DNA from: a bacterium
GTDB lineage: Bacteria > BMS3Abin14
Direction of reading: 5' to 3'
Length of the DNA stretch: 64,000 nt
NCBI GenBank assembly: GCA_020350725.1
Contig: CP070719.1
Location: 376,837-440,836 of the forward strand
The notes beneath the pieces were generated by a model. The model made no database searches. It was not told the DNA's origin and saw only the letters and a list, made by a program, of their open reading frames with translations. Within the stretch, counting starts at the first letter, position 1; every line of letters begins with the position of its first letter. Position numbers and translations under genes: made by a program. Below, one piece after another: positions 3,301-28,231 of the stretch.

Positions 3301-4523
3301 AGATCAGGATCGTACGCAACAGCATGTACGAGAAGATCCGGTCCACCATCAACGGCAAGAAGCTGGCCGCCGACGTCAAGGCCCCCGACGGATCCGTCCT
3401 GAGCAAGAAGGACGGCAAGGTCACGAACAAGATCCTCGACGAGCTCCCCAAGATCAAGTGGTTCGACATTCCTCTCACCGACCCGAAGGCCCTCGAGAGG
3501 ATGGCCCTCCTGCGGCAGCGGTCCGAGAACCAGGAGGAGATGATCAGGACCCTGTTCGACGGCAAGATCGAGAAGCTCAGAAAGGGTGACGAGCTTCCGC
3601 CGGGCGTCATCAAAATGGTCAAGGTATACCTTGCCATCAAGAGACATCTCTCCGTCGGGGACAAGATGGCCGGCCGACACGGCAACAAGGGCGTCCTGTC
3701 CAAAATCGTCCCGGTTGAGGACATGCCATATATGGAAGACGGCACGCCGGTCGATATGATCCTGAATCCCCTCGGCGTCCCCAGCCGGATGAACGTAGGC
3801 CAGATCCTGGAGACAATGCTGGGCTGGGCGGCGAAGGGGATCGGTGACAGGATCGACGAGATGCTCACCAACAGCACGAGCCCGGCGAAGGTGAGGCAGT
3901 TTCTCAAGAAGATCTACACACCCGACCAGGCCACCGAGTCCTCGTCGAAGGCGGTCGACCTGATCAACAGCCTGGAGGATGAAGAGGTCTTACGCCTGGT
4001 CGACACCATGAGGCCAGGACTCCGGGTCGCCTCACCGGTCTTCGACGGGGCCCACGAGGAGGAGATCCAGACACTCCTCACCATGGCCGACCTCCCCATC
4101 AGGGGGCAGGCCCGCCTTTTCGACGGTCGGACCGGTCATCCCTTCCACCGGAAGGTGACCGTTGGATTCATCTACATGATGAAGCTTCACCACCTCGTGG
4201 ATGACAAGATCCACGCCCGGTCCATCGGCCCGTATTCGTTGGTCACGCAGCAGCCCCTGGGCGGCAAGGCCCAGTTCGGAGGTCAGAGGTTCGGAGAGAT
4301 GGAAGTGTGGGCGCTTGAGGGATACGGTGCGGCCCACACCCTGCAGGAGATGCTCACCGTGAAATCCGATGACGTGGCCGGCCGGACCAAGATGTACGAG
4401 GCCATCGTCAAGGGAAACAATGCCATGGAGGCCGGCCTCCCTGAATCCTTCAACGTACTGGTAAAAGAGCTCCAGAGCTTCTGCCTGGATGTGGAGTTGC
4501 TGGAGGTTGAGGACGAGACGTGA
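369..4523 (+). CDS. rpoB: DNA-directed RNA polymerase subunit beta
   Basis: The product is 1384 aa, full length for the family. The ATG at 369 follows a GGGGTGAG Shine-Dalgarno. It is the catalytic beta subunit of RNA polymerase. Visible landmarks are the N-terminal [20 protein letters not shown] segment, the rifampicin-pocket region [17 protein letters not shown]...[12 protein letters not shown], which looks like the susceptible type, the [12 protein letters not shown] block, the [13 protein letters not shown] lysine/histidine motif and the C-terminal [20 protein letters not shown] clamp segment. rpoC follows after 74 bp in the usual order. A long antisense open frame over its 5' part is a codon-bias shadow. 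Confidence 0.99.
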
Positions 4524-13310: not shown

Positions 13311-13366
13311 GGACCCCGAAACGGGGACGGGACTACGCCTTTCGGCGGGCAGGAGGATTGAAGGCA

Positions 13367-13678
13367 ATGGAACAACAGAAGATCCGGATCAAACTGAAGG
13401 CCTATGATCACCGGATCCTGGACGCATCGGTCAACGAGATCGTCGAGACAGCCAGGCGGACAGGTGCGAGGGTCTGCGGGCCCATCCCGCTTCCTACGAG
13501 AAAGAGCGTCTATACGGTCCTCCGGTCCCCGTTCATCGACAAGAAGTCCAGGGAGCAGTTTGAGATCCGGGTCCACAAGAGGATGCTGGACATCGTCGAG
13601 CCGACGCCGCAGACGGTGGATTCGCTGATGAAACTGGATCTCTCCGCAGGCGTGGACGTCGAGATCAAGCTCTCTTAA
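13367..13678 (+). CDS. rpsJ: 30S ribosomal protein S10
   Basis: The product is 103 aa starting [21 protein letters not shown]. The ATG at 13367 is preferred over a TTG 9 bases upstream because it lies 10 bases after AGGAGG and fits the family N-terminus. S10 (NusE) belongs to the 30S head and also bridges NusB/NusG in transcription antitermination. It is the first gene of the S10 cluster and should be followed by rplC, but the next gene is rplD, 9 bases after the stop codon. Confidence 0.97.
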
Positions 13679-13687
13679 GGATAGGTG

Positions 13688-14314
13688 ATGATCATGCCCC
13701 AGGTGGAAATCCTCAATACGAAAAGAGAAGTCGTGGGCAAGGTTGATCTGGCGGCCTGGTGGGGCGAACCGCCCAGTGTGCCCATCGTCCACCAGGCGGT
13801 CGTCTCCGCCCTCGCCGGCGCCAGGAGAGGCAGCTCCTCCAGCAAAGGCCGCTCGGAGGTTCGCGGGGGCGGGGCGAAGCCGTTCCGGCAGAAGGGCACC
13901 GGCCGCGCCAGGCAGGGCACCATCCGTGCCCCCCAGATGAGGGGCGGTGGCGTCGTTTTCGGCCCCAAGCCGCGCGATTTCTCAAAATCCATGAACAAGA
14001 AGATGAGCAGAAAAGCCCTCAGAAGTGCCCTGGCGCACAAGGCGGCCACAGATGCACTTCTGGTGCTGGACGGCGTGGCGATCGAAAACCCCAAGACCCG
14101 AGAGCTGGTGGCCCTGATGGACAATCTCGACGTCATCAGTGCCCTGCTCGTCCTGGAGGAGATCCCGGAGACGCTTCAGAGGGCCTCCTCGAACCTGAGG
14201 TGGCTCAAGATCGTAACGACCGACAGGGTAAACACCTATGATGTCCTCGGATTCGAAAAACTCATCGTCACAAAGGGGGCCCTCGAAGCCCTGGAAGGAG
14301 CCCTTTCCCGATGA
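13688..14314 (+). CDS. rplD: 50S ribosomal protein L4
   Basis: The product is about 208 aa. The start is one of ATG 13688 or 13694; AAGGA at 13677-13681 favours 13688. The conserved long loop reaching the exit tunnel is present ([30 protein letters not shown]), as is the C-terminal [17 protein letters not shown] segment. L4 is an early assembly protein and, in E. coli, the autogenous repressor of the S10 operon. Its direct contact with rpsJ is abnormal, because rplC is missing between them. It overlaps rplW by 4 bp (ATGA). Confidence 0.96.
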
Positions 14315-14601
14315 AACCCTTCAGCAAGGTGATCCTCCGGCCACTTCTCACGGAAAAGAACGCGTTTATGAAGGAGCTGGAGAACCGCGTGGTGTTCGAA
14401 GTGGCCAGGAGCGCCAATAAGGTGGAGATCAAGCAGGCCATCGAGGAGGCGTTCAAGGTCTCGGTGGAGGCAGTCAATATCGTCAACGTCAGGGGGAAGG
14501 TAAAGAGACTCGGCCGGAATGTGGGAAAGCGCCGGGATTGGAAAAAGGCCATCGTAACCCTCAAGGAGGGAGAATCCATCGAGTTCTTCGAGGGCGTGTG
14601 A
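14311..14601 (+). CDS. rplW: 50S ribosomal protein L23
   Basis: The product is 96 aa, normal for the family. It opens with the typical [12 protein letters not shown] segment and has the [16 protein letters not shown]-like beta-alpha core. L23 sits at the polypeptide exit tunnel and docks trigger factor and the signal recognition particle. Its ATG overlaps the rplD stop, implying translational coupling. The next gene, rplB, lies 118 bp away, the largest gap inside this S10 cluster. Confidence 0.96.
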
Positions 14602-14612
14602 TGGGACTTTGT

Positions 14613-14712
14613 CTCCCCTGATCCCTCGCTCCGGGCAGGTTCGCGGCGGTGAGTACGCCCGAGGACGTCAGGAACGGTGGATTGGGGAATAGAGGCAGCA
14701 TCGATCAGGGAG
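14613..14712 (+). promoter_or_regulatory. Long-range inverted repeat covering the rplB ribosome-binding site
   Basis: CTCCCCTGATC at 14613-14623 is complementary, with one bulge, to GATCAGGGAG at 14703-14712. The 3' arm contains the AGGGAG Shine-Dalgarno of rplB, 7 bases before its ATG. Folding would hide that site, so translation of rplB could be switchable or coupled to rplW. This is a structural inference. Confidence 0.35.
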
Positions 14713-14719
14713 TCAGTAT

Positions 14720-15541
14720 ATGGGAGTTCGAAAGCTCAAACCGACGTCGCCGGGCAGGCGGTTTCAAACGGTGTCCGATTTTGCAGAGGTCACGACAGAC
14801 AAGCCGGAGAAGAGCCTTCTGGTTCCCCTGAAGAAAACGGGCGGCAGGAATAACACCGGCAGGATCACGGCCTGGCAGAGAGGTGGCGGGCACAAGAGGC
14901 GCTATCGGATCGTCGATTTCAGGAGAAACAAATACGACATCCCCGCCAAGGTCAGGTCCATCGAGTACGATCCGAACCGGTCGGCATATATAGCTCTGCT
15001 TGTCTATGCGGACGGTGAGAAGAGGTACATCCTCGCCCCGCAGAATCTCAACGTCGGTGACCAGGTCGTCTCCGGCGAGAGGACCGATGTCCGTCCCGGC
15101 AACGCCATGAAGATCAGGAACATCCCTCTGGGAACCCTCGTTCACAACATAGAGCTCAAGAGCGGCAAGGGGGGGCAGATGGTTCGCAGTGCCGGTGGAT
15201 ATGCCCAGCTCATGGCCAAGGAGGGCGATCACGCCACCCTCAGACTTCCCTCCGGGGAGATCAGGCTGGTCCGGCAGGACTGCATGGCCACCGTTGGGGA
15301 GATCAGCAATCCCCAGCACGAGATCATCTCCAAAGGAAAAGCCGGCAGGAACCGGTGGCTCGGGAGACGTCCAAACGTCAGGGGGGTGGCCATGAACCCC
15401 GTTGACCACCCCATGGGGGGCGGCGAGGGCAAGAGCTCTGGAGGACGGCATCCGTGCACACCCTGGGGTGTCCCCACGAAGGGCTTCAAGACGAGAAAGA
15501 ACAAGAATTCCGATCGCTACATCGTGAAACGGCGGTCCTAA
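14720..15541 (+). CDS. rplB: 50S ribosomal protein L2
   Basis: The product is 273 aa. L2 is a primary rRNA-binding protein needed for subunit joining and peptidyl transferase activity. The signature [17 protein letters not shown] block with its essential histidine is present at about residues 220-236, together with the N-terminal KPTSPGRRF and the [21 protein letters not shown]-binding segment. Length and C-terminus are standard. It is followed 15 bp later by rpsS. Confidence 0.98.
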
Positions 15542-15556
15542 CCCAGGAGGAGAGCA

Positions 15557-15838
15557 TTGGCCAGGTCGATAAAAAAGGGCCCCTTCGTCGATGACCATTT
15601 ACTTAAGAAGCTCCAGCATATGCATGAGAGCAGCGAGAAAAAGGTCATCAAAACCTGGTCCAGAAGGTCCATGATCATCCCCGACATGGTCGGCTACACC
15701 TTCGCTGTCCACAACGGGCGCAAGTTTGTACCCGTCTTCGTCACGGAGAACATGGTGGGCCACAGGCTGGGAGAATTCTCCCCGACCCGAACCTACAAAG
15801 GACACACCTCCAAGACCGACAGAAGGGGCAGGAAGTAA
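15557..15838 (+). CDS. rpsS: 30S ribosomal protein S19
   Basis: The product is 93 aa, read from a TTG start that gives [15 protein letters not shown], the conserved N-terminus. An AGGAGG at 15545-15550 lies 6 bases upstream, so the TTG is well supported. S19 forms a head complex with S13 and contacts the A-site finger. The typical [22 protein letters not shown] and [16 protein letters not shown] segments are intact. Confidence 0.97.
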
Positions 15839-15853
15839 GGATAGGGACAACCC

Positions 15854-16186
15854 ATGGAAGCTCAAGCGAAGGCAAAATACGTTCGGATCGCTCCCAGGAA
15901 GGTCCGACTCGTGATGGATATGGTGAGGGGCAAGTCCGTGTCCGAAGCCCTCAACACCCTCGGTCTGGTTCGCAAGGCCGCCTCGCCGGTGATCGCCAAG
16001 GTCATCCGGTCGGCGGTCGCCAACGCGGAAAATGCGAAGGAGATGAATCCGGACGCCCTCTATATCAAAAGGGCCTTTGTCGACGAAGGACCCACGATGA
16101 GGCGCTTCATGCCGAGGGCAATGGGGAGGGCGACCTTGATCCGCAAGAGAACGAGCCACATTACCGTGGTGCTGGGTGAGAAGTAA
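15854..16186 (+). CDS. rplV: 50S ribosomal protein L22
   Basis: The product is 110 aa. L22 spans the 50S domains, and its beta-hairpin lines the exit tunnel opposite L4. The N-terminal [23 protein letters not shown] and the hairpin segment with [11 protein letters not shown], where macrolide-resistance insertions are found in other species, are present and ungapped. It starts 15 bp after rpsS and ends 11 bp before rpsC. Confidence 0.97.
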
Positions 16187-16197
16187 GGAGGAACGAT

Positions 16198-16854
16198 TTG
16201 GGTCAGAAAGTCCATCCCAAGGGATTCCGGCTGGGGATCATCAAGGACTGGGATTCCCGCTGGTACGCAGAGAGGGAATACTCGAAGCTTCTCCACGAGG
16301 ATATCAGCATTAGGAACACCATCAAGGAGAGGCTCTATCACGCGGGTATTTCCCAGATCATTATCGAGAGGACGGCAAAGAGGGCGAGGATCAACATTCA
16401 CGCCGCCAGGCCGGGCATCATTATCGGCAAGAAAGGCTCTGAAGTGGAGTCCCTGCGGCGCGAGATCCAGAAGATGACCGAAAAGGACATCTTCATCAAC
16501 ATTATCGAGGTGCGGAAACCGGAGATCGAGGCCCAGCTCGTCGCCGAGAACATCGCCGGCCAGCTGGAACGCCGCGTCGCCTTCAGACGGGCCCTTAAGC
16601 GGAGCGTTACGTCGGCCCTTCGGTTCGGAGCCGAGGGGATCAAGGTGATGTGCGCCGGCCGTCTCAATGGCGCCGAGATGTCCCGGCGCGAATGGTACAG
16701 AGAGGGACGGGTTCCCCTCCAGACCCTCAGGGCTGATATCGACTACGGTTTCGCCGAAGCGAAAACGACCTACGGCGTCATCGGCGTCAAGGTCTGGGTC
16801 TTCAAGGGCGAAGTCATGACCAACAGAGGGGAATCCGAGGTCACCGTCGGCTGA
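16198..16854 (+). CDS. rpsC: 30S ribosomal protein S3
   Basis: The product is 218 aa from a TTG start ([13 protein letters not shown], the universal N-terminus) behind AAGGAGG. S3 lies at the mRNA entry channel and contributes helicase activity with S4. A type-II KH domain holds the GKKG loop ([17 protein letters not shown]), and the C-terminal domain carries the SGRLNGAE-like [23 protein letters not shown] segment. The length is standard. Confidence 0.97.
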
Positions 16855-16898
16855 GGTCGGACCTGCGGGACGAGACGGTCTGATGTGGAGATTGCGCC

Positions 16899-17315
16899 AT
16901 GTTGATGCCTAAAAAGGTTAAATTCAGGAAACAGCAGAGGGGCAGGATGAGGGGTGCCGCGAGGAGAGGCAACGTTCTCAATTTCGGTGATTTCGGCCTC
17001 CAGGCCCTGACGCCGGGCTGGGTCACATCCCGGCAGATCGAGTCCGCCCGGATCGCCATTACCAGGCACGTCAAGAGGGGCGGTAAAGTCTGGATCCGGA
17101 TCTTTCCCGACAAGCCCATTACCAAAAAACCGGCCGAGACCCGGATGGGCAAGGGTAAAGGATCCCCCGAAGCATGGGTTGCCGTCGTCAAACCGGGGCG
17201 GATTCTCTACGAGCTCGAGGGTGTTCCCGAGGCGGTGGCACGGGAAGCCATGAGGTTGGCATCCCACAAGCTCCCCATTAAAACCCGGATTCTCGTCAGG
17301 GAGGAGAAGGGATGA
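16899..17315 (+). CDS. rplP: 50S ribosomal protein L16
   Basis: The product is 138 aa beginning [17 protein letters not shown]16 organises the A-site region of the 50S subunit. The conserved [27 protein letters not shown] and [25 protein letters not shown] segments are present. The Arg-containing [10 protein letters not shown] loop is the usual site of ribosomal oxygenase modification in some proteobacteria. The stop overlaps the rpmC start by 4 bp. Confidence 0.97.
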
Positions 17316-17518
17316 AAGCGGGGGCACTCAGGGACATGACGATCGAGGAACTGATCCAGAAGGAGAAGGACCTGTACGCGGAACTCTTCAACCTCCGCTT
17401 CCAGCTGGCCACCAACCAGCTGGAAAATCCCATGCGCCTTCCCCTGACCAAGAAGGATCTGGCAAGGGTCAAGACGATCATTGCGGAAAAACGGCAGTCA
17501 TCCGAGAGGGCTGAATGA
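17312..17518 (+). CDS. rpmC: 50S ribosomal protein L29
   Basis: The product is 68 aa. This small two-helix protein sits near the tunnel exit beside L23. The family signature [23 protein letters not shown] is complete, and the N-terminal [13 protein letters not shown] helix follows a short MKAGALRD extension. It overlaps rplP upstream (ATGA) and rpsQ downstream (TGATG), so the three genes are probably translationally coupled. Confidence 0.95.
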
Positions 17519-17796
17519 TGTCGGACGAGTCAAGAACAAGGAACAGGAAGATCATCACCGGGACCGTGGTGAGCAACAGGATGGACAAGACGGCGGTGGT
17601 CCAGACCCAGAGGAAATTCATGCACCCCGTCTTCAAAAAATTCGTCAGCAAGAGAGTCAAATACAAGGTCCACGACGAGAAGAACACTCTGGATATCGGG
17701 GATACCGTCCGGATCGTGGAAACAAGGCCTTTGAGCCGCGACAAGCGGTGGCGACTCCTGGATATTCTGGAAAAGGTCCAGCAGGAAGAGACATAG
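17515..17796 (+). CDS. rpsQ: 30S ribosomal protein S17
   Basis: The product is 93 aa, with alternative starts at adjacent ATGs 17515 and 17518. S17 is a primary 16S-binding OB-fold protein. The family core [20 protein letters not shown]...HPVFKKFV and the C-terminal [14 protein letters not shown] block are clear. It overlaps rpmC by 4 bp and is followed by rplN after 24 bp. Confidence 0.95.
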
Positions 17797-17820
17797 GTTG
17801 GCGATCGAGGGGAAGAGGAA

Positions 17821-18189
17821 ATGATCAAGGTGGAAACGGTCCTGGATGTGGCCGATAACAGCGGCGCCAAAAAGGTGCTCTGCTTCCGCATACTCGGTGG
17901 CTCACGACGGAAGTCCGCCTCAGTTGGGGATGTCATCGTCGTCTCGATCAAGGAAGCGGCACCTGAATCAAAGGTTAAAAAGGGCGAGGTCCACAGGGCG
18001 GTTATCGTCAGAACCAAGAAGGAGGTCCGCCGTCCAGATGGATCCTACATTCGCTTCGACAACAACGCTGCGGTGATCATCAACGACCAGAGGGAACCCA
18101 TCGGGACGAGGATCTTCGGCCCCATAGCGCGGGAACTGAGGGGAAAGAACTTCATGAAGATCGTTTCCCTCGCTCCGGAGGTCCTTTAA
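17821..18189 (+). CDS. rplN: 50S ribosomal protein L14
   Basis: The product is 122 aa, the invariant length of the family. L14 forms an intersubunit bridge and is the docking site of the silencing factor RsfS. The segments [18 protein letters not shown] and [10 protein letters not shown]-like [24 protein letters not shown] are intact, as is the C-terminal [13 protein letters not shown]. The start ATG follows a GGGAAGAGGA stretch. Confidence 0.97.
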
Positions 18190-18200
18190 AGGAGGCTCCC

Positions 18201-18521
18201 ATGGGAAAGACGAGCATTAGAAAAAACGATATGGTGATCGTCACGGCAGGCAAGGAGAAAGGCAAGAAGGGGAAGGTCCTGAGAGTCGTGCCTGAGAAGA
18301 AACGGGTCATCGTGGAGAAGATCAATTTCATAAAGAAGCACCAGAGGCCGACCAGTGCCCAGAAACAGGGCGGCATCATTGAGAAGGAAGGGCTGATCCA
18401 CATCTCCAACGTCATGATCTTCTGCGAGAAATGCGGCAAGGGCGTAAGGGTTCGCCATCAACGTCTTGCCGACGGCAGCACTGAGAGGATGTGCGCCGGG
18501 TGCGGCGAGTCCTTCGATTGA
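18201..18521 (+). CDS. rplX: 50S ribosomal protein L24, zinc-ribbon form
   Basis: The product is 106 aa. An N-terminal KOW domain ([22 protein letters not shown]) binds the 5' end of 23S rRNA and starts 50S assembly. The C-terminus carries two CxxC pairs, C75/C78 and C98/C101, in [11 protein letters not shown] and MCAGCGESF. They should bind zinc; many species have lost these cysteines. It lies 11 bp after rplN with an AGGAGG site. Confidence 0.96.
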
Positions 18522-18537
18522 GTGGGAGATAACGTTC

Positions 18538-19077
18538 ATGGACAGTCTTCAGAACAGGTACCGCAAAGAGATCATCCCGGCGATGATGAAGAGATTCAAC
18601 TACGGGAACATCATGCAGGTTCCCAGGCTGGAGAAGATCGTCATCAATATGGGACTGGGTGACGCTCTTCAGAACGCCAGGATCCTCGACACGTCCATTG
18701 ACGAGCTCTCCCTCATAACCGGCCAGAGACCGGTCCTGACCCGGGCAAGAAAGTCCATCGCGAACTTCAAGCTCAGGGAGGGAAATCCCATCGGCTGCAT
18801 GGTCACGCTCAGGAAAAAGCGAATGTACGAGTTCCTCGACAGGCTGCTCAACGTCGCCCTGCCCCGGGTGAGGGACTTCAAAGGGACCTCACCGAAGGCT
18901 TTCGACGGTCGGGGAAACTACACCCTCGGCATCCGGGAACAGCTTATATTTCCCGAGATCAATTACGATAAGGTGGAGCAGATCAAAGGGATGAACATCA
19001 CCATCGTCACCACCGCCAAAACGGACGAGGAAGCCAGGGAGCTTCTGTCCCTTATCGGCGTGCCGTTCAGGAATTAG
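18538..19077 (+). CDS. rplE: 50S ribosomal protein L5
   Basis: The product is 179 aa from the ATG at 18538 ([23 protein letters not shown]). A longer frame begins inside rplX but lacks family similarity in the extension. L5 binds 5S rRNA and contacts P-site tRNA. The conserved [37 protein letters not shown] and [10 protein letters not shown] segments are present. It lies 16 bp after rplX. Confidence 0.96.
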
Positions 19078-19090
19078 GACTGGAGGAAAA

Positions 19091-19276
19091 ATGGCCAAGA
19101 AAGCCCTGATAAACAAGGCCAGGCGCGAACCGAAGTTCGCGGTGAGAAGCTACAATCGATGCCCCCTCTGCGGCAGGTCCAGGGGATATCTGAGAAAATT
19201 TGCCATGTGCAGGATCTGCTTCCGCGCACGAGCCCTCGCCGGGGAGATCCCGGGCGTGGTCAAGGCAAGCTGGTAG
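19091..19276 (+). CDS. rpsN: 30S ribosomal protein S14, zinc-binding type (61 aa)
   Basis: The product is 61 aa, the short zinc-containing form rather than the ~100-aa cysteine-less one. C24, C27, C40 and C43 form the CPLCG...CRICF ribbon. S14 belongs to the 30S head near S3 and S10. It is preceded by a GGAGG and lies between rplE and rpsH as in standard spc clusters. Zinc-free duplicates of this gene exist in some bacteria; none is in this window. Confidence 0.97.
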
Positions 19277-19286
19277 GAGGATCACC

Positions 19287-19685
19287 ATGTCCATGACCGA
19301 CCCCGTAGCCGACATGCTCACCCGGATCCGGAACGCCCTTCTGGCGGGCAAGGAGAGGGTCGATGTCCCCGCCTCCTCCCTGAAGGAGGACATCGCGAGG
19401 ATCCTCAAGGAAGAGGGATATATCAAGAGCTACAAACTCATTGAGGACAGCAAGCAGGGAGTTCTCCGGGTCACCCTGAAGTACGGTGATCAGGCCACTC
19501 CCGCCATCACCGCGATCCGCAGGATCAGCAAGCCCGGACGGAGGGTCTACGTCAGCACGAAGGAAGTCCCGCGAGTGCTCAACGGCCTCGGGGTGGCCAT
19601 CATGTCCACTTCGAAGGGCGTCATGACCGACAGGGAATCGCGAAAACAGAATGTCGGCGGCGAAGTGCTCTGCTACGTCTGGTAA
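19287..19685 (+). CDS. rpsH: 30S ribosomal protein S8
   Basis: The product is 132 aa from ATG 19287, with AGGAGG 5 bases upstream ([21 protein letters not shown]). S8 binds helix 21 of 16S rRNA and in E. coli represses the spc operon by binding its mRNA near rplE. The C-terminal [31 protein letters not shown] segment is canonical. The longer upstream frame overlaps rpsN and is not a credible extension. Confidence 0.96.
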
Positions 19686-19743
19686 CGGCCCTCGGACGGC
19701 CCCAGGGTCGGACGGGGGAAGATTTCCCCTTGGAGCGAAAGAG

Positions 19744-20283
19744 ATGTCAAGAATCGGAAAGCATCCTGTACAGATACCCGGCGGTGTAGAAGTCAGGTTC
19801 GAGGGACGGACGGTCTTCGCCAAAGGTCCTCTCGGAGAGCTCCAGCGGGATCTGCCCGCCGGTGTCGAACTGAAGATCGAGGAGGACAACATTCAGGTCC
19901 TTCCTCCCCAGAGGCCAAAGGAAAAGACCGCCATGCAGGGGCTCACCCGCACCCTCATCGACAACCTGGTCGTCGGCGTCTCACAGGGATTCACCAAGGA
20001 CCTCGACATGGAGGGAGTCGGCTACCGGGCCATGGTGAAGGGAAGGACCCTGGAGTTGATGGTCGGCTTTTCCAATCCGGTCCAGTTTGAGATACCGGAG
20101 GGTATCTCGGCGGAGGTCGGGCAGAATAACAGGATCACCATAAAGGGAATCAGCAAGGAGAAGGTAGGGCAGACGGCAGCGGACATCAGGGCCATCCGTC
20201 CCCCGGAACCCTACAAGGGTAAGGGTATCCGATACGCGGGAGAGCGGATCAAGCGCAAGGCGGGTAAGGCCGCGGTGACCTAA
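19744..20283 (+). CDS. rplF: 50S ribosomal protein L6
   Basis: The product is 179 aa from ATG 19744 ([17 protein letters not shown]). L6 lies near the sarcin-ricin loop and factor-binding site. The C-terminal signature [26 protein letters not shown] is present. An in-frame extension back into rpsH lacks family features. The start follows a 58-bp gap that carries a small GC-rich inverted repeat. Confidence 0.96.
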
Positions 20284-20306
20284 CCTGCGCCTCGGAGGGT
20301 TCAAAA

Positions 20307-20675
20307 TTGACAAGGATCGAAGCGAAGACCGGCGCGCGCATCAAGAGGAGGAGGAGGATCCGCGGCAGGATCCGGGGAACGGCCGAACGGCCCCGCCTCT
20401 CGGTGTACCGAAGCGCCCGCCATATATATGCCCAGATCATCAACGACGATACGGGCGTCGTTCTGACCAGTGCGTCCACAGTTGACAGAGAACTCAGGGG
20501 GACGGTCAAGAACGGGGGTAACGCGGACGCCGCCCGCGAGGTGGGTAAGCTCCTCGCTACACGCGCTGTGGAGAAGAGGGTTCAGAGTGTCACCTTCGAC
20601 AGGGGAGGATTTCGCTATCACGGCAGGGTCAAAGCCCTGGCCGAGGCCGCCAGGGAGGGCGGGCTCAAATTCTAA
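20307..20675 (+). CDS. rplR: 50S ribosomal protein L18
   Basis: The product is 122 aa from a TTG start. L18 brings 5S rRNA into the central protuberance with L5. The conserved [19 protein letters not shown] and [27 protein letters not shown] blocks are intact, and the N-terminus is Arg-rich ([12 protein letters not shown]) as expected for the RNA-binding tail. CGGAGGG lies upstream of the TTG. Confidence 0.96.
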
Positions 20676-20722
20676 GGCCCCTGCCGGCCCCCCGACCGGG
20701 AAGGCGGCGCAGGAGCATGGGA

Positions 20723-21256
20723 GTGACAATGAAGAGATCCTTAAAAAAGCCGCTCAGGGATGTCACCATCGACGAGACTGACCTGATCGACAAAGTCGTC
20801 TTCATCAACCGCGTGGCCAAGGTCGTCAAGGGCGGCAGGCGGTTTCGCTTCAGTGCCCTGGTGGTGGTCGGCGACGGAAAGGGAACAGTCGGCGTCGGCT
20901 CCGGCAAGGCGAACGAGGTGCCGGAGGCCATCCGCAAGGGCATCGACAACGCCAAGAAGAATCTCCACAGGATACCCCTCAGCGGAACCACTGTGCCCCA
21001 TCAGGTCATGGGCCGCTGGGGAGCCGCCAGGGTTCTTCTCAAGCCGGCCTCACCGGGCACGGGCGTTATCGCCGGCGGACCCGTGAGGGCTCTGATGGAA
21101 TCCCTGGGTGTGAAGGACATCCTCACCAAGTGCATCGGGACGAACAATCCCAGCAACGTCCTCATGGCCTCTATGCAGGGGCTCCTTACTCTGAGAAGCC
21201 CGGAAGAGGTCGCTCTCCTCAGGGGCAAGAGTGTCGGTGACGTCCTCCACAGATAG
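20723..21256 (+). CDS. rpsE: 30S ribosomal protein S5
   Basis: The product is about 177 aa. Possible starts are ATG 20717, GTG 20723 and ATG 20729. The AGGAG at 20711-20715 gives ideal spacing only to GTG 20723, so I prefer it. S5 forms the mRNA entry and accuracy region with S4. The [33 protein letters not shown] core and the C-terminal fold are complete. The GGRRF spectinomycin loop looks wild type. Confidence 0.95.
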
Positions 21257-21270
21257 TGCGGGAGAGCATA

Positions 21271-21459
21271 ATGGCTAAGATCAGCATAACCCTGGTTCGA
21301 AGTACCATCGGCAGGCCCGAGAAGCACCGCAGGATCGTCCGCAGCCTCGGACTCAGAAAACTCCACCAGACGGTCTGTCACGACGACAACCCGAGAATCA
21401 GAGGCATGATCGAGAAAGTCCCCCATCTCGTCAGAGCCGAGGTCCTGGAGGAAAAATAG
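21271..21459 (+). CDS. rpmD: 50S ribosomal protein L30
   Basis: The product is 62 aa from ATG 21271 ([21 protein letters not shown]), behind GGGAGAG. L30 is a small surface protein of the 50S subunit and is dispensable in some lineages. The [22 protein letters not shown] segment is diagnostic. Its stop codon is immediately followed by the rplO ATG with no spacer, suggesting coupled translation. Confidence 0.96.
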
Positions 21460-21894
21460 ATGCTGGATCAGCTGAAATCCGCAAAAGGGGCGGCGAAAAA
21501 GAGAAAACGGGTCGGTCGCGGTCCGGGGTCAGGGATCGGCAAAACCTGCGGGCGCGGCGCCAACGGACAGTGGGCCCGCTCCGGAGGCGGTGTCAAGGCC
21601 GGATTCGAGGGGGGACAGATGCCCCTTCAGCGGAGGCTTCCCAAGAGGGGTTTCACCAACATCTTCCGGAAGGAATACTCCATTGTGAATCTCAAGGACC
21701 TGGGCCGGGTGGCCGACGTCGATGTCGTGGATCCCGATCTGATGATCAAGCTGAGGCTGGCGAGAAAAGGGCTCCCGGTCAAGATCCTGGGCGTCGGTGA
21801 GCTTGACCGACCTCTCACCGTGAGGGCCCACAAAGCAAGCCGGACTGCCGCCGAGAAGATCGAGAAGGCCGGTGGCAAAATCGAGATCATCTGA
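21460..21894 (+). CDS. rplO: 50S ribosomal protein L15
   Basis: The product is 144 aa. L15 is a late-assembly protein with a long Gly/Arg-rich N-terminal extension ([18 protein letters not shown]) that threads into 23S rRNA, followed by a globular domain with [12 protein letters not shown]. It starts directly after the rpmD stop and ends 11 bp before secY. Confidence 0.96.
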
Positions 21895-21905
21895 GAGGGA
21901 ACAAG

Positions 21906-23213
21906 TTGTTCAGCAGCCTACAGAATATCTTCAAGATCCCCGAACTGAAGAGGAGGATCTTCTTCACCTTCGGCCTGCTCGCCATCTACCGGGTGGGTGC
22001 CCATATTCCCACGCCGGGAATCGATGGGACGGCGCTGGCGGAGTTCTTCAGGCAGGCTCAGGGTACTCTGCTGGGATTCTTCGATATGTTCGCCGGCGGG
22101 GCGCTCCTGAGGATGACGATATTTGCCCTCGGGATCATGCCCTACATCAGCGCCAGCATCATCATCCAGCTCCTGACCGTCGTCATCCCGCACCTGGAGA
22201 GGCTCTCCAAGGAGGGCGAGGCGGGCCGCAGGAAGATCATCCGTTACACCCGTTACGGGACGGTGGGGCTTGCCGCCTTCCAGAGCTTCGGCATCTCCGT
22301 CGGTCTGGAACAGATGACGAGCCCGGGGGGAGCGGCCATCGTGCCCTTTCCCGGCTGGGGTTTTCGCATGATGACGGTTATCAGCCTCACCGCGGGGACG
22401 GCCTTTATCATGTGGCTGGGTGAGCAGATCACGGAGAGGGGTATCGGCAACGGGATATCGTTGATCATCTTCGCCGGAATCGTCGCCAGGATGCCCACCG
22501 CCACCGGAAGGACGGTAACCCTTGTCAGAACAGGGGAAATATCGACCTTCCTGACGCTCTTCGTCCTGATCCTGATGGTGGCTGTCGTCGCCTTTATCAT
22601 CTACATGGAGAGAGGTCAGAGGAAGATACCGGTCCAGTATGCCAAACGGGTCGTGGGGCGGAAGATGTACGGAGGGCAGAGCACGCACCTCCCCATGAAG
22701 GTGAACACGGCGGGGGTCATACCACCCATTTTCGCCTCCTCGATCCTCATGTTCCCTGCAACGGTGGCCGGCTTCATCAAGAACCCCATCATGGAGGCGA
22801 TCGCCAACACCTTCGCCCCCGGAAGGGCCCTGTACACCGTCCTTTACGTGGGCCTGATCATTTTCTTCTGCTATTTCTACACCGCGATCCAGTTCAACCC
22901 GGTGGACGTGGCGGACAACCTCAAGAAATATGGAGGTTACATCCCGGGCATAAGGCCGGGGAGGAAAACGGCCGAATACCTGGACAGGGTCCTGTCGAGG
23001 ATCACATTCGGTGGGGCCATCTACCTGTCCCTGGTATGCGTCCTCCCCGAGATCCTCTACAGGATCTTTAATGTTCCCTTCTATTTCGGGGGCACAGGAC
23101 TCCTCATCGTCATCGGCGTGGCCCTCGACACTGTCACTCAGATCGAGACCCATCTGCTCACCAGACACTACGAGGGGTTCCTCAAGAAGGGAAAGATCAG
23201 AGGGAGGCGCTGA
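21906..23213 (+). CDS. secY: Preprotein translocase subunit SecY
   Basis: The product is 435 aa from a TTG start (MFSSLQNIFKIPELKRRIFFT). It is the channel-forming inner-membrane subunit of the Sec translocon, with ten predicted membrane spans. The family landmarks AIYRVGAHIPTPGID, the GIMPYISASIIIQLLTVV plug/TM2 region and the cytoplasmic loop with PVQYAKRVVGRKMYGGQSTHLP are visible. Secretion of the exported proteins encoded later in the window depends on it. The final bases overlap the adk start codon. Confidence 0.98.
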   Translation: MFSSLQNIFKIPELKRRIFFTFGLLAIYRVGAHIPTPGIDGTALAEFFRQAQGTLLGFFDMFAGGALLRMTIFALGIMPYISASIIIQLLTVVIPHLERLSKEGEAGRRKIIRYTRYGTVGLAAFQSFGISVGLEQMTSPGGAAIVPFPGWGFRMMTVISLTAGTAFIMWLGEQITERGIGNGISLIIFAGIVARMPTATGRTVTLVRTGEISTFLTLFVLILMVAVVAFIIYMERGQRKIPVQYAKRVVGRKMYGGQSTHLPMKVNTAGVIPPIFASSILMFPATVAGFIKNPIMEAIANTFAPGRALYTVLYVGLIIFFCYFYTAIQFNPVDVADNLKKYGGYIPGIRPGRKTAEYLDRVLSRITFGGAIYLSLVCVLPEILYRIFNVPFYFGGTGLLIVIGVALDTVTQIETHLLTRHYEGFLKKGKIRGRR

Positions 23214-23857
23214 TGGACATTATCCTTCTCGGACCACCTGGAGCCGGAAAGGGAACTCAGGCGAAGTTCATGGTTGACAAGTGGGAGATCCCCCAGATAT
23301 CGACGGGCGACATCCTGAGGGGCGCCGTCCGCGATGGCACTCCGCTCGGTCTTGAGGCCAAGGGCTTCATGGATCGGGGAGAGCTGGTCCCCGACCGGGT
23401 CGTTATCGGAATTATCGCCGAGCGCCTCAGGGAGGACGATGCCCAGAGGGGTTTTATCCTGGACGGTTTCCCGCGCACCATTCCCCAGGCGGAGGCCCTG
23501 GAGGAGATTCTCACCGAACTCGGTCGCAATATCGACCATGTCGTCAGCATTGACGTGGACGATGAGGAGCTGGTGAGAAGACTGACGGGGAGGAGGATGT
23601 GCAAGGGGTGCGGAGAGAGTTTCCACATGGTCTTCAACCCCCCCCGGACGGAGGGCGTGTGCGACAGCTGCCGGGGGGAGCTCTATCAGCGGGACGACGA
23701 CAACGAGGAAACCATCCGGCAACGACTCAAGGTGTACAACGACCAGACCTCCCCCCTGATCGATTTCTACAGAGGGCTGGGAAAACTTCGGGAGATCAAT
23801 GGGACGCGAACTCCCCCCGAGATCTTCTCCGACATCGTGAGCACCCTGTCCGGGTAG
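23213..23857 (+). CDS. adk: Adenylate kinase, zinc-LID type
   Basis: The product is 214 aa. It catalyses ATP + AMP to 2 ADP. The P-loop GPPGAGKGTQ lies at residues 7-16, and the NMP-binding and DGFPRT segments follow. The LID domain carries C130, C133, C150 and C153, the zinc-binding form found in many Gram-positive and some Gram-negative bacteria. The ATG overlaps the secY stop (TGATG). Its place between secY and map is the standard spc-cluster order. Confidence 0.97.
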   Translation: MDIILLGPPGAGKGTQAKFMVDKWEIPQISTGDILRGAVRDGTPLGLEAKGFMDRGELVPDRVVIGIIAERLREDDAQRGFILDGFPRTIPQAEALEEILTELGRNIDHVVSIDVDDEELVRRLTGRRMCKGCGESFHMVFNPPRTEGVCDSCRGELYQRDDDNEETIRQRLKVYNDQTSPLIDFYRGLGKLREINGTRTPPEIFSDIVSTLSG

Positions 23858-23921
23858 GGCTCACGGATCAGGCTCCCGTGAATCCCCTCACGTCCCGGGG
23901 TGGGAACAACGAAACCTCCCG

Positions 23922-24671
23922 ATGATATACAGAAAGTCAGCGGCTGAGATAGGCCTCATGAGGGAGGGCGGCAAGGCCGTTGCCAGGATCCTTGAAAGAA
24001 TGAGGGATGTCGTAAGGCCGGGCGTCCCGACATCCGAGATCGAGCAGGAAGCCGAAGGGATGTCCAGGACCCTCGGGATCGTACCCGCATTCAAGGGGTA
24101 CATGGGTTACCCCAGCAGTATTTGCGTCTCCATCAACGATGAGGTGGTACACGGCATCCCCTCGGAGAAGAGGCTCCTCAAGGGAGGCGACATCGTCGGT
24201 CTCGACTTCGGTGCCCTGTATCAGGGATATTACGCCGATGCGGCCATCACTCTCCCCGTTGGAGAACTCGAGGGTGAGGCCGAGCATCTGCTCAAGGTCA
24301 CGAGGGAGGCTCTTTTCAAGGGAATCGAGGCCGCGGTGGTCGACAACCGCGTGGGGGACATCTCCCACGCCGTTCAGAACCACGTGGAGAGCCACGGTTA
24401 CTCGGTGGTGAAGACCTTTGTCGGCCACGGGATCGGACGAAAGCTCCATGAGGAGCCGCAGGTTCCCAACTTCGGGAGCCCCGAGTGGGGCGCCCGGCTG
24501 AAGGAGGGAATGACCCTGGCCATCGAACCTATGGTCAACGCAGGATCCGACGGTATCAGGGTCCTCGACGACGGCTGGACAGCGGTCACAATGGACGGCA
24601 GCCTGTCAGCTCATTTCGAACATACGGTCGCGGTCACGGCCAACGGTCCGATGATCCTGACCGATATCTGA
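23922..24671 (+). CDS. map: Methionine aminopeptidase, type I
   Basis: The product is 249 aa. It removes the initiator methionine from nascent proteins. The five metal ligands can be placed in VGLDFGALYQGYYADAA (two Asp), FVGHGIGRKLHEEP (His), LAIEPMVN (Glu) and HFEHTVAVT (Glu). There is no N-terminal zinc-finger extension. It follows adk after 64 bp and precedes infA by 27 bp. Confidence 0.97.
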   Translation: MIYRKSAAEIGLMREGGKAVARILERMRDVVRPGVPTSEIEQEAEGMSRTLGIVPAFKGYMGYPSSICVSINDEVVHGIPSEKRLLKGGDIVGLDFGALYQGYYADAAITLPVGELEGEAEHLLKVTREALFKGIEAAVVDNRVGDISHAVQNHVESHGYSVVKTFVGHGIGRKLHEEPQVPNFGSPEWGARLKEGMTLAIEPMVNAGSDGIRVLDDGWTAVTMDGSLSAHFEHTVAVTANGPMILTDI

Positions 24672-24698
24672 GAGGCGGGCGGAGGAGAGAAAAGGGAT

Positions 24699-24917
24699 AT
24701 GGCTAAGGAAGAAGCGATTGAGGTCGAAGGAACGGTGGTGGAGCCTTTGCCCAACGCCATGTTCAGGGTTGAGCTCGAGAACGGCCACCAGGTCCTGGCG
24801 CATATCTCCGGCAAGATGAGGATGCATTACATCAGGATATTGCCCGGGGACAGGGTAACGGTTGAGCTCTCGCCCTACGACCTGACCAGGGGAAGGATAA
24901 CTTACAGGGCAAAATAG
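24699..24917 (+). CDS. infA: Translation initiation factor IF-1
   Basis: The product is 72 aa, the usual size. IF-1 is an OB-fold protein that occupies the ribosomal A site during initiation. The signature segments [53 protein letters not shown] and RGRITYR are all present. It is the first of the alpha-cluster group infA-rpmJ-rpsM-rpsK-rpsD-rpoA-rplQ. Confidence 0.98.
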
Positions 24918-24942
24918 CCTTCCCGAAAGGAAATTGTGAGAG

Positions 24943-25056
24943 ATGAAAGTCAGACCATCTGTCAAGAAGATGTGCGACAAGTGTAAGATCATCCGCCGCA
25001 AAGGGGTTGTGAGGGTGATCTGCGAGAACCCGAAGCATAAGCAGCGGCAGGGATAA
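24943..25056 (+). CDS. rpmJ: 50S ribosomal protein L36
   Basis: The 37-codon gene starts [15 protein letters not shown] and ends HKQRQG. It is a zinc-ribbon protein with C11, C14, C27 and H32 as ligands, matching the zinc-containing L36 family exactly. L36 stabilises domain interactions in 23S rRNA. It lies 25 bp after infA and 18 bp before rpsM, its expected place. Only a short purine-rich GAGAG stretch precedes the ATG. Confidence 0.96.
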
Positions 25057-25074
25057 TACTGAGGAGGTACTGCA

Positions 25075-25446
25075 GTGGCGCGTATCGCCGGAGTGGACTT
25101 ACCGAGGAGCAAAAGGATCGAGGTCGCCCTGACCTACATCTACGGGATCGGCCCGACCAAGGCCGCGCAGATAGTCAGGGATTCCGAAGTCGATCCGAAT
25201 ACCAGGGTTAACGAGCTGGATGAGACCCAGGTCAGCCGACTGAGGGACACCATCGTCAAGAACCACATGGTGGAGGGCGACCTCCGCAGGGAGGTCTCAT
25301 TCAATATCAAACGCAAGATGGACCTCGGTTCATACGAGGGGCTGCGCCACAGACGAGGTCTGCCCGTCCGGGGCCAGAGGACCAAAACCAACGCGAGATC
25401 CAGGAAGGGACACAAACCTTCCATTGGCGGCAGGAAGAAGAAGTAA
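25075..25446 (+). CDS. rpsM: 30S ribosomal protein S13
   Basis: The product is 123 aa from a GTG start ([26 protein letters not shown]) with GAGGAGG upstream. S13 contacts P-site tRNA and bridges to L5. The helix-two-turn-helix core and the basic C-terminal tail ([19 protein letters not shown]...KKK) are complete. It ends 21 bp before rpsK. Confidence 0.97.
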
Positions 25447-25467
25447 GCGTCTGCACTGGAGGAAACG

Positions 25468-25857
25468 ATGGCTAGACCGAAGAAGGGATCTGCCCGAAAG
25501 GTTAAGAAGAACATACCGGTTGGTGTGGCCCACATTCAGGCGACATTCAACAACACGATCATCACCATCACCGACCCCTCTGGAAATACCGTCGCCTGGT
25601 GCAGCGCCGGCAGCAAGGGTTTCAAGGGATCGAGGAAGAGCACGCCTTTTGCCGCCCAGCTGGCCGCTGAGGATGCAGCCAAAAAGGCCATGGAGCACGG
25701 TGTGCGCAGGGTGGATGTTATGGTCAAAGGACCGGGATCGGGGCGTGAGGCCGCCCTCAGATCCCTCCAGGCCGCCGGCCTTGAGGTCACCATGATCCGT
25801 GATGTCACACCCATCCCCCATAATGGATGCAGGCCTCCCAAGAGGCGGAGGGTTTAG
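25468..25857 (+). CDS. rpsK: 30S ribosomal protein S11
   Basis: The product is 129 aa. S11 lies in the platform near the E site. The signature [22 protein letters not shown], the [17 protein letters not shown] helix and the C-terminal [16 protein letters not shown] motif are intact. The Asn-Gly in that motif is a known site of isoaspartate formation in E. coli S11. rpsD begins 66 bp later. Confidence 0.97.
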
Positions 25858-25923
25858 ATCCCAGTGGGATACAGAGGGTCCACGAGAAGATATCTGCACT
25901 GTCTGTGATCAAGGAGGACGAAA

Positions 25924-26550
25924 TTGGCTCGATACAGAGAATCAGTCTGTCGACTCTGCAGAAGAGAGGGTACGAAGCTCTTCCTCAAGGGAGATCGATG
26001 CTATTCGGATAAATGTGCCGTTGAGCGCCGGCCCTATCCCCCCGGAGTGCATGGGACGAGGCGGATGAAACACTCCGACTACGGTGTCCAGCTCCGGGAG
26101 AAGCAGAAGGCCAAGAGGATCTACGGGGTCATGGAATCCCAGTTCCGGAATTACTTCAAAACGGCCGACCGGATGAAGGGCGTGACGGGGGAAAATCTGC
26201 TTGTCCTCCTCGAGAGGCGCCTGGACAGCACCGTTTTCCGCCTCGGGTTCGCCCAGTCGAGGGCGGATGCCAGACAGCTCATCCGCCACGGTCATCTTCT
26301 GGTCAACGACAGGAAAGTGGACATCCCGTCCTACAGCCTCCGACCGGGTGACGTCATCCAGATCAGGGAAAAGAGCAGGAACTCGGTGCGGATCCAGGAA
26401 GCTCTTGTCGCGGCGGAGAGGAAGAGCGTGCCGGCCTGGCTTGACCTGGAGGTCAAGGATTTCAAGGGCACCTTCAGGAACTACCCGAGCCGGGATGAGA
26501 TTGCCCTGCCCGTCCAGGAACAGCTCATAGTGGAGCTTTACTCCAAATAG
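25924..26550 (+). CDS. rpsD: 30S ribosomal protein S4, zinc-binding type
   Basis: The product is 208 aa from a TTG start ([16 protein letters not shown]) that follows AAGGAGGACG. S4 is the primary 16S-binding protein of the body and, in several bacteria, an autogenous repressor of the alpha operon. The N-terminal zinc site is C9, C12, C26 and C31. An S4 RNA-binding domain follows ([32 protein letters not shown]). Confidence 0.97.
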
Positions 26551-26577
26551 GGCCGAACCTGCGAGGAGAGATAAACC

Positions 26578-27606
26578 ATGTTGGAAAAGAATTGGAAGAG
26601 CCTTACCCGCCCTAAGAAACTCGATTTTGATGTCGAATCGAAAACAGACACATTCTGCAGGTTCACGGCTGAGCCCTTCGAGAGGGGATTTGGAACCACC
26701 CTGGGGAACGGGTTGAGGAGGATCCTCCTGTCTTCCCTTCAGGGGGCTGCGATCACGGCGTTCCGGGTCGAGGGGGTGCTCCACGAATTTTCGACCATCC
26801 CGGGGGTTTTCGAGGATGTCACCCAGATCGTGCTCAATCTCAAGGAGCTCCGGTTCAGGGTTCACACCGATAAAGCCAAGATCATCTCCCTGGACATGAA
26901 CCAGGAGGGTGTCGTCACGGGGGGCGATATCATCACCGATCAGGACGTGGAGATCCTCAATCCTGAGAAGGTGATCGCCACCCTGGAAAAAGGCGCCCAT
27001 CTGAAGATGGAAATGGTTGTCCGCCTGAACAGCGGTTTCATCACATCGGACAGGAACAAGGACGAGGATCTCCCGGTGGATTTCATCGCCCTCGATTCCA
27101 TCCATTCGCCCATAATCAAGGTGAATTACTGGGTTGAGAACGCCAGGGTGGGGCGGATGACAGACTTCGACAAGCTCAGCATGGATATCACCACAGACGG
27201 CAGCATTTCGCCTGAGGATGCCCTGGCCATCTCGGCCAAGATCCTCAAAGAGCACATGACCCTCTTCATCAACTTCGAGGAGCACGATATCACCGAGGAA
27301 GAGGCGGAGAGGGAGTCGGAGGAGGAGCGGCAGCGGCTCTACGAGAAGCTCAACAAGCACGTCAACGAGCTCGAGCTCTCCGTCCGGTCCATCAACTGCC
27401 TTCAGAATGCCAATATCGGGACCATCGGCGAGCTGGTTCAGAAGACCGAAGCCGACATGCTGAGGACCAAGAACTTCGGCAGAAAGTCCCTCAATGAGCT
27501 GAAGGAGATCCTCGATGAGATGAAGTTGAGCTTCGGTATGGATATAAAGGGCTGGACGCCTGAACAAGCCGGGTTCGAGGAGGAAGAACTGTCTGAGGAG
27601 GCCTAG
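26578..27606 (+). CDS. rpoA: DNA-directed RNA polymerase subunit alpha
   Basis: The product is 342 aa. The N-terminal domain dimerises and assembles beta and beta' ([20 protein letters not shown] motif). After a linker of about 15 residues rich in Glu/Arg, the C-terminal domain with [27 protein letters not shown] and [13 protein letters not shown] binds UP elements and activators. Length and layout are normal. rplQ follows 40 bp later. Confidence 0.98.
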
Positions 27607-27646
27607 CGGGCCGATCAGATTTCGTCAGGGAAAGGCAGGAGATTTC

Positions 27647-28231
27647 ATGCGTCATCTTAAATCAGGGAAAAAACTGGGAAGGACCCCGTCTCACCGGAAG
27701 GCCCTCTTCCGGAATATGGTCACCTCTCTCCTCCAGCATGAAAGGATCGTGACCACGGAGGTGAAGGCCAAGGAGGTGGGCAGATTGGCGGAAAAGATGA
27801 TCACCCTCGGTAAGCGGGGAGACCTGCATGCCAGACGGCAGGCCATCGCCTTCGTCAGGAGCAACGAGGTCGTGAAACGGGTCTTCACCGAATATGCCGA
27901 GAGGTACAGGAACAGAGAGGGTGGTTATACCCGGGTTCTCAAGCTCGAGCCCAGGTCCGGTGACAACGCACCCATGGCCCTGGTGGAACTGGTGGACCGT
28001 CCGGTCCGGGAGCCGGCTAAGGAGAAGAAGCCCGCCAAGGAGGCAGCGAAGAAAGCGAAAGCCCCCGAGAAGAAGGAAAAGGCCGCCAAGCCGAAAAAGG
28101 CGCCTGCCAAAAAGGCCGGGAAAGAGGAGGAGAAGCCGGCGGCCAAAAAAACCACCAAGAAGGCTGCAGCTGAGAAAAAAGCGCCCCCATCAGCAGCGAA
28201 GAAGAAAACCGCCGAGAAGGGGACTGAATAG
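27647..28231 (+). CDS. rplQ: 50S ribosomal protein L17 with a long Lys/Ala-rich C-terminal tail
   Basis: The product is 194 aa. The first ~120 residues are a normal L17 ([29 protein letters not shown]..., [30 protein letters not shown]). The last ~70 residues are almost only Lys, Ala, Glu and Pro in AKK/PAKK-like words, resembling histone H1 or AlgP-type tails. Such tails are intrinsically disordered and bind nucleic acid in other proteins. The tail is in frame and in the same codon style, so it is not an assembly artefact by appearance. A terminator follows. Confidence 0.96.

Follow-up and report, generated by a model that had tools for sequence, protein, structure and literature searches.

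The gene for ribosomal protein L3 lies far from the S10 cluster, behind a candidate regulatory RNA leader, in a small bacterial lineage

The window analysed here, a stretch of 64,000 nucleotides (376,837-440,836) of a genome consisting of a single contig of 2,777,163 bases, carries the S10, spc and alpha clusters of ribosomal protein genes (Table 1). Its S10 operon resembles the canonical one in all other genes, in their order and in their tight spacing, but rplC is gone and rpsJ directly joins rplD. The stop codon of rpsJ (TAA, 13676-13678) is overlapped by an AAGGA ribosome-binding site (13677-13681), and of the possible in-frame starts of rplD (GTG at 13685, ATG at 13688 and ATG at 13694) the ATG at 13688 is most likely the one used; with the stop of rpsJ directly before the start of rplD, rplC has no room at the junction. 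The identities of S10 and L4 are backed by Pfam and NCBIfam profiles, and tblastn searches started from rplW, rplB and rpsS hit S10 clusters across phyla; the names of the spc and alpha genes, the last of which is rplQ (27647-28231 in the list of open reading frames), were assigned from the N-termini and order of the reading frames rather than from gene-by-gene profiles. The original prediction, that rplC is missing between rpsJ and rplD with the other genes from rpsJ to rplQ present in order, is borne out by these reading frames and N-termini. Neither the junction sequence nor a search of the whole genome with PF00297 revealed a second L3 or a remnant of rplC at the junction.

Table 1. Ribosomal protein genes and the rpsJ-rplD junction, in window coordinates.
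Feature	Position	Strand	Basis
rpsJ (uS10), the gene after which rplC is lacking	13358..13678	+	ORF; PF00338 128 bits; TIGR01049/NF001861
rpsJ-rplD junction, usual site of rplC	13676..13687	+	sequence; same in all 10 relatives with data
rplD (uL4)	13685..14314	+	ORF; TIGR03953 218.7 bits
rplW, rplB, rpsS, rplV, rpsC, rplP, rpmC (rest of S10 operon, canonical order)	14311..17518	+	ORFs
spc and alpha clusters, rpsQ to rplQ, including secY, adk, map, infA, rpmJ, rpoA	17481..28231	+	ORF order, complete

As a primary assembly protein L3 is universal, and the position of its gene in the operon is taken as near-invariant. A profile search of the rest of the genome, which the original prediction had proposed, found one L3 (PF00297 match at C1:2095832-2096098, minus strand), encoded 1.7 Mb from the S10 cluster by a solitary, intact, single-copy gene of 227 codons (about C1:2095697-2096380, minus strand). 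The protein is a bacterial uL3 according to the equivalog model TIGR03625 (284.1 bits against a cutoff of 142.9, residues 5-205 aligned to positions 2-202 of 202); it matches the core at full length and differs in having the HE type of loop and an acidic C-terminal tail specific to the lineage. This tail, rich in Glu, Ala and Pro, extends 17-104 residues past the core in all 11 L3 proteins of the lineage (L012:9697-9750; L139-L148) and is absent from 15 other solitary L3 proteins checked; unusual as it is for a basic ribosomal protein, it is perhaps a built-in aid to solubility or assembly. The gene is flanked upstream by a gene for a VWA-domain protein and downstream by genes for a response regulator, an ArsR-type regulator, an aminotransferase and MetH. 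The response regulator gene begins 2-3 nt after rplC, an odd operon partner for a ribosomal protein gene, and a single-domain response regulator also follows rplC closely in several lineage members (L003, L004, L010, L001).

Whether run at family, order or phylum level, the searches gave an identical set of 12 genomes, which makes the lineage small and isolated in the collection. L3 was found in 11 of the 12, never near rplD; the twelfth, 71% complete, has neither L3 nor L4. The comparison of the junction in related genomes, likewise proposed beforehand, gave rpsJ joined to rplD without rplC in every genome with data (11/11, or 10/10 relatives), a pattern that neither chance nor faulty assembly explains. 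The neighbourhood of L3 is also common to the lineage, with the response regulator, ArsR regulator, aminotransferase and MetH genes downstream in most genomes and the VWA-protein cluster upstream in three, and together with the shared junction it indicates one ancestral event. The absence of rplC from the S10 cluster is thus an old, fixed state of the lineage. An assembly error or a strain-specific deletion at 13676-13696 has no point in its favour that we could find and, given the identical junction in 11/11 genomes and the intact L3 gene elsewhere in each, may be considered extremely improbable. Where the original prediction allowed that rplC had moved, had been deleted in this copy or had been lost in assembly, the intact single-copy gene far away favours the first option, and loss in assembly is refuted. 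Even so, "moved" may partly mean "replaced by another type of L3", because solitary rplC genes recur across bacteria and the L3 gene tree conflicts with that of the S10 cluster.

Outside the lineage, L3 is encoded away from rplD in 11 of 130 genomes of other phyla that have both L3 and L4, with rpsJ directly before rplD in each (some of the pairs being judged by eye with two tables side by side), and in five named "Deltaproteobacteria" or proteobacterial metagenome-assembled genomes. The neighbourhoods of rplC differ in all of these solitary lineages, and a conserved partner gene upstream of rplC was rejected, as reading frames of similar size there are unrelated or unlikely to be genes. The survey of other-phylum genomes found none with two L3 genes. 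One genome of 4.8 Mb, rated 100% complete, has no match to PF00297; its L4 gene is cut at the start of a contig, and the missing L3 is therefore likely to reflect a contig break.

Upstream of the relocated rplC, all 11 lineage genomes have the sequence TTGAC, 41-47 nt before the CTAAA that begins the leader core, a conserved -35-like element and candidate part of a promoter belonging to rplC itself; its -10 counterpart is no more than approximate and was not called by a promoter scan. The leader of about 65 nt follows the same order in the 11 genomes: TTGAC is followed by CTAAA[AC]CAT[CT]C, next by a hairpin whose length varies, and then by GGATAAGAT[AG]G and the Shine-Dalgarno sequence. RNAalifold predicts a consensus of three helices, the outermost of which pairs CUCC, as its 5' strand, with the Shine-Dalgarno GGAGG. 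Inside it lie a CUA/UAG helix of 3 bp, the AAMC/AAGA internal loop, which is invariant, and the variable hairpin. The covariation score is 0.315, compared with 0.228 +/- 0.025 in shuffled alignments (0 of 500 reach it), and 93.9% of cells are paired as opposed to 40-48% in slid controls, although the alignment was fitted to the model and these counts therefore lean towards it. Changes on both sides are carried by helices 1 and 3; helix 2 and the internal loop, being nearly invariant, have no covariation of their own. Folds of single sequences and a MAFFT-based prediction agree with the structure of the model.

A covariance model of the leader has one strong match per genome, always before rplC (11/11, E values 9e-10 to 9e-15; next-best match 0.24), and none in 133 genomes of other phyla or at 72 control loci. 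The model also finds no counterpart in the other solitary-rplC lineages, so the leader is not a general requirement of a solitary rplC, and the idea that it is a general companion of such genes was rejected. No family of Rfam 15 matches above chance (the best, BTH_s1, scores 13.6 bits against a gathering score of 74), and a literature search on relocation of rplC or a leader of L3 found nothing relevant. The new observation, then, is that every relocated rplC of the lineage has a TTGAC promoter element of its own and a leader of about 65 nt, which is a well-supported candidate regulatory RNA confined to one small lineage.

On balance, the absence of rplC is probably to be explained by an ancestral separate L3 locus, loss of the operonic gene and control of the remaining gene by its own promoter and a leader repressed by uL3. 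In the common ancestor of the lineage, one gene at a separate site in the chromosome would have become the sole source of L3, the copy in the operon disappearing without a scar. Excess free uL3 would then bind the invariant internal loop and stabilise the helix that sequesters the Shine-Dalgarno sequence, repressing its own translation; such control would stand in for the uL4-type or operon-coupled regulation lost when the gene left the S10 transcript. That uL3 is probably the ligand of an autogenous leader is suggested by anatomy: autogenous leaders are built in this way, with the ribosome-binding site of a ribosomal protein gene hidden in a helix and an invariant internal loop above it. The ribosomal protein uL3 is linked to the stability of domains 0 and VI of 23S rRNA (PMC9687910). 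Compared with the complete 23S rRNA of E. coli, the leader core has its best local match at 2722-2741 in domain VI, a position that reads GCTAAATCCGGAAAGGATAA in the organism's own rRNA; the match is weak, and because shuffled 23S sequences reach the same score in 7-12 of 300 cases (2-4%), this resemblance to domain VI is only suggestive and is taken as a hint. The full leader model has no match in the roughly 340 nt of the 3' end of the organism's 23S rRNA used for the comparison (C1:489587-489696; L175, about 4097-4196 not covered).

An ordinary rearrangement, by segmental duplication and asymmetric loss, with the leader being a mere fold of the 5' untranslated region or the binding site of another factor, is unlikely to account for these features. 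Duplication and differential loss is likewise a proposed route of change in the rearranged str, S10 and spc clusters of Gammaproteobacteria and Bacilli (Brandis 2021, PMC8046335), a study in which rplC is not mentioned, and the ligand of the leader is a putative one; against this reading stand the invariant internal loop and the Shine-Dalgarno pairing, both kept across the genera examined, and the occurrence of the leader once per genome and specifically at rplC. Five proteins of the S10 cluster reject a single ancestral relocation shared by all bacteria with a solitary rplC, both with 83 taxa (p 0.00018) and in a careful run with 50 taxa (p 1e-7, difference in log likelihood 193). L3 itself does not reject a clade of solitary lineages (p 0.48 on the full set of columns, p 0.38 once the loop is removed), although this group was named after the location data had been seen and long branches are present. 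Because a quick, free search of the L3 tree without the loop ended 60 log units below a constrained search, the careful 50-taxon runs were used in place of quick L3 trees. The HE loop, at the position of HGTHESKRGPGSIG, is present in 26 of 27 solitary but 7 of 114 operonic L3 proteins (16 of 17 solitary when the family is counted once; Fisher p 3e-14), and most of the L3 columns associated with gene location lie in it.

The straightforward reading of this conflict is that a distinct, solitary L3 with the HE loop, spread by horizontal transfer or surviving from an ancient duplication, has repeatedly displaced a native operonic rplC that was then deleted. The recurrence of solitary genes in other phyla and the five metagenome-assembled genomes, the disagreement between S10 proteins and L3, and the distribution of the loop all suggest it, and it is compatible with regulation by the leader; it is nevertheless a strong lead rather than a conclusion, quite possible but falling somewhat short of an even chance. 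Non-rejection by L3 is no proof of a clade, the support in loop-less L3 trees is moderate (81/95) with operonic L3 proteins falling inside, and FastTree without the loop gives 11 changes, as does the S10 tree (11). Moreover, there is no genome with two L3 genes and no identified donor, seven operonic L3 proteins also have the loop, and the phylogenetically independent starred pairs number only 4, too few for a sign test. Convergence would mean many independent departures of rplC from the operon, with the loop either favoured in an L3 produced on its own or simply an old polymorphism of certain lineages; it would fit the 9-13 changes of location that S10 trees need, the different neighbourhoods outside the family and the concentration of location-associated columns in the loop. 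It appears rather doubtful, since even the part of L3 beyond the loop fails to reject a single clade and there is no known reason for the loop to depend on the location of the gene. The boldest combination, an HE-loop class of uL3 with a solitary gene that has repeatedly displaced operonic rplC across phyla and is controlled here by an undescribed autoregulatory RNA that binds uL3 and imitates domain VI of 23S rRNA, is unlikely.

That rplC has been lost from the operon throughout a lineage, and that the same is seen in about 8% of the bacterial lineages sampled, has a bearing on how operons of ribosomal proteins stay together. If displacement is true, uL3 would be unsafe as a vertically inherited marker in these groups, though it is used in concatenated ribosomal trees. 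Under the autogenous reading, the rplC leader is a candidate for a new ribosomal protein ligand in autogenous control: L3 is not among the ligands in the table of 20 motifs given by Eckert and Weinberg 2020 (PMC7247131). The known leaders of this kind (uL1, uL4/S10, L10, L20, L31, S4, S15) are likewise short, conserved, folded RNAs with covariation, located directly before a ribosomal protein gene, and some of them mimic rRNA; the leader described here differs from them in matching no family of Rfam 15, in belonging to one small lineage and in standing before rplC.
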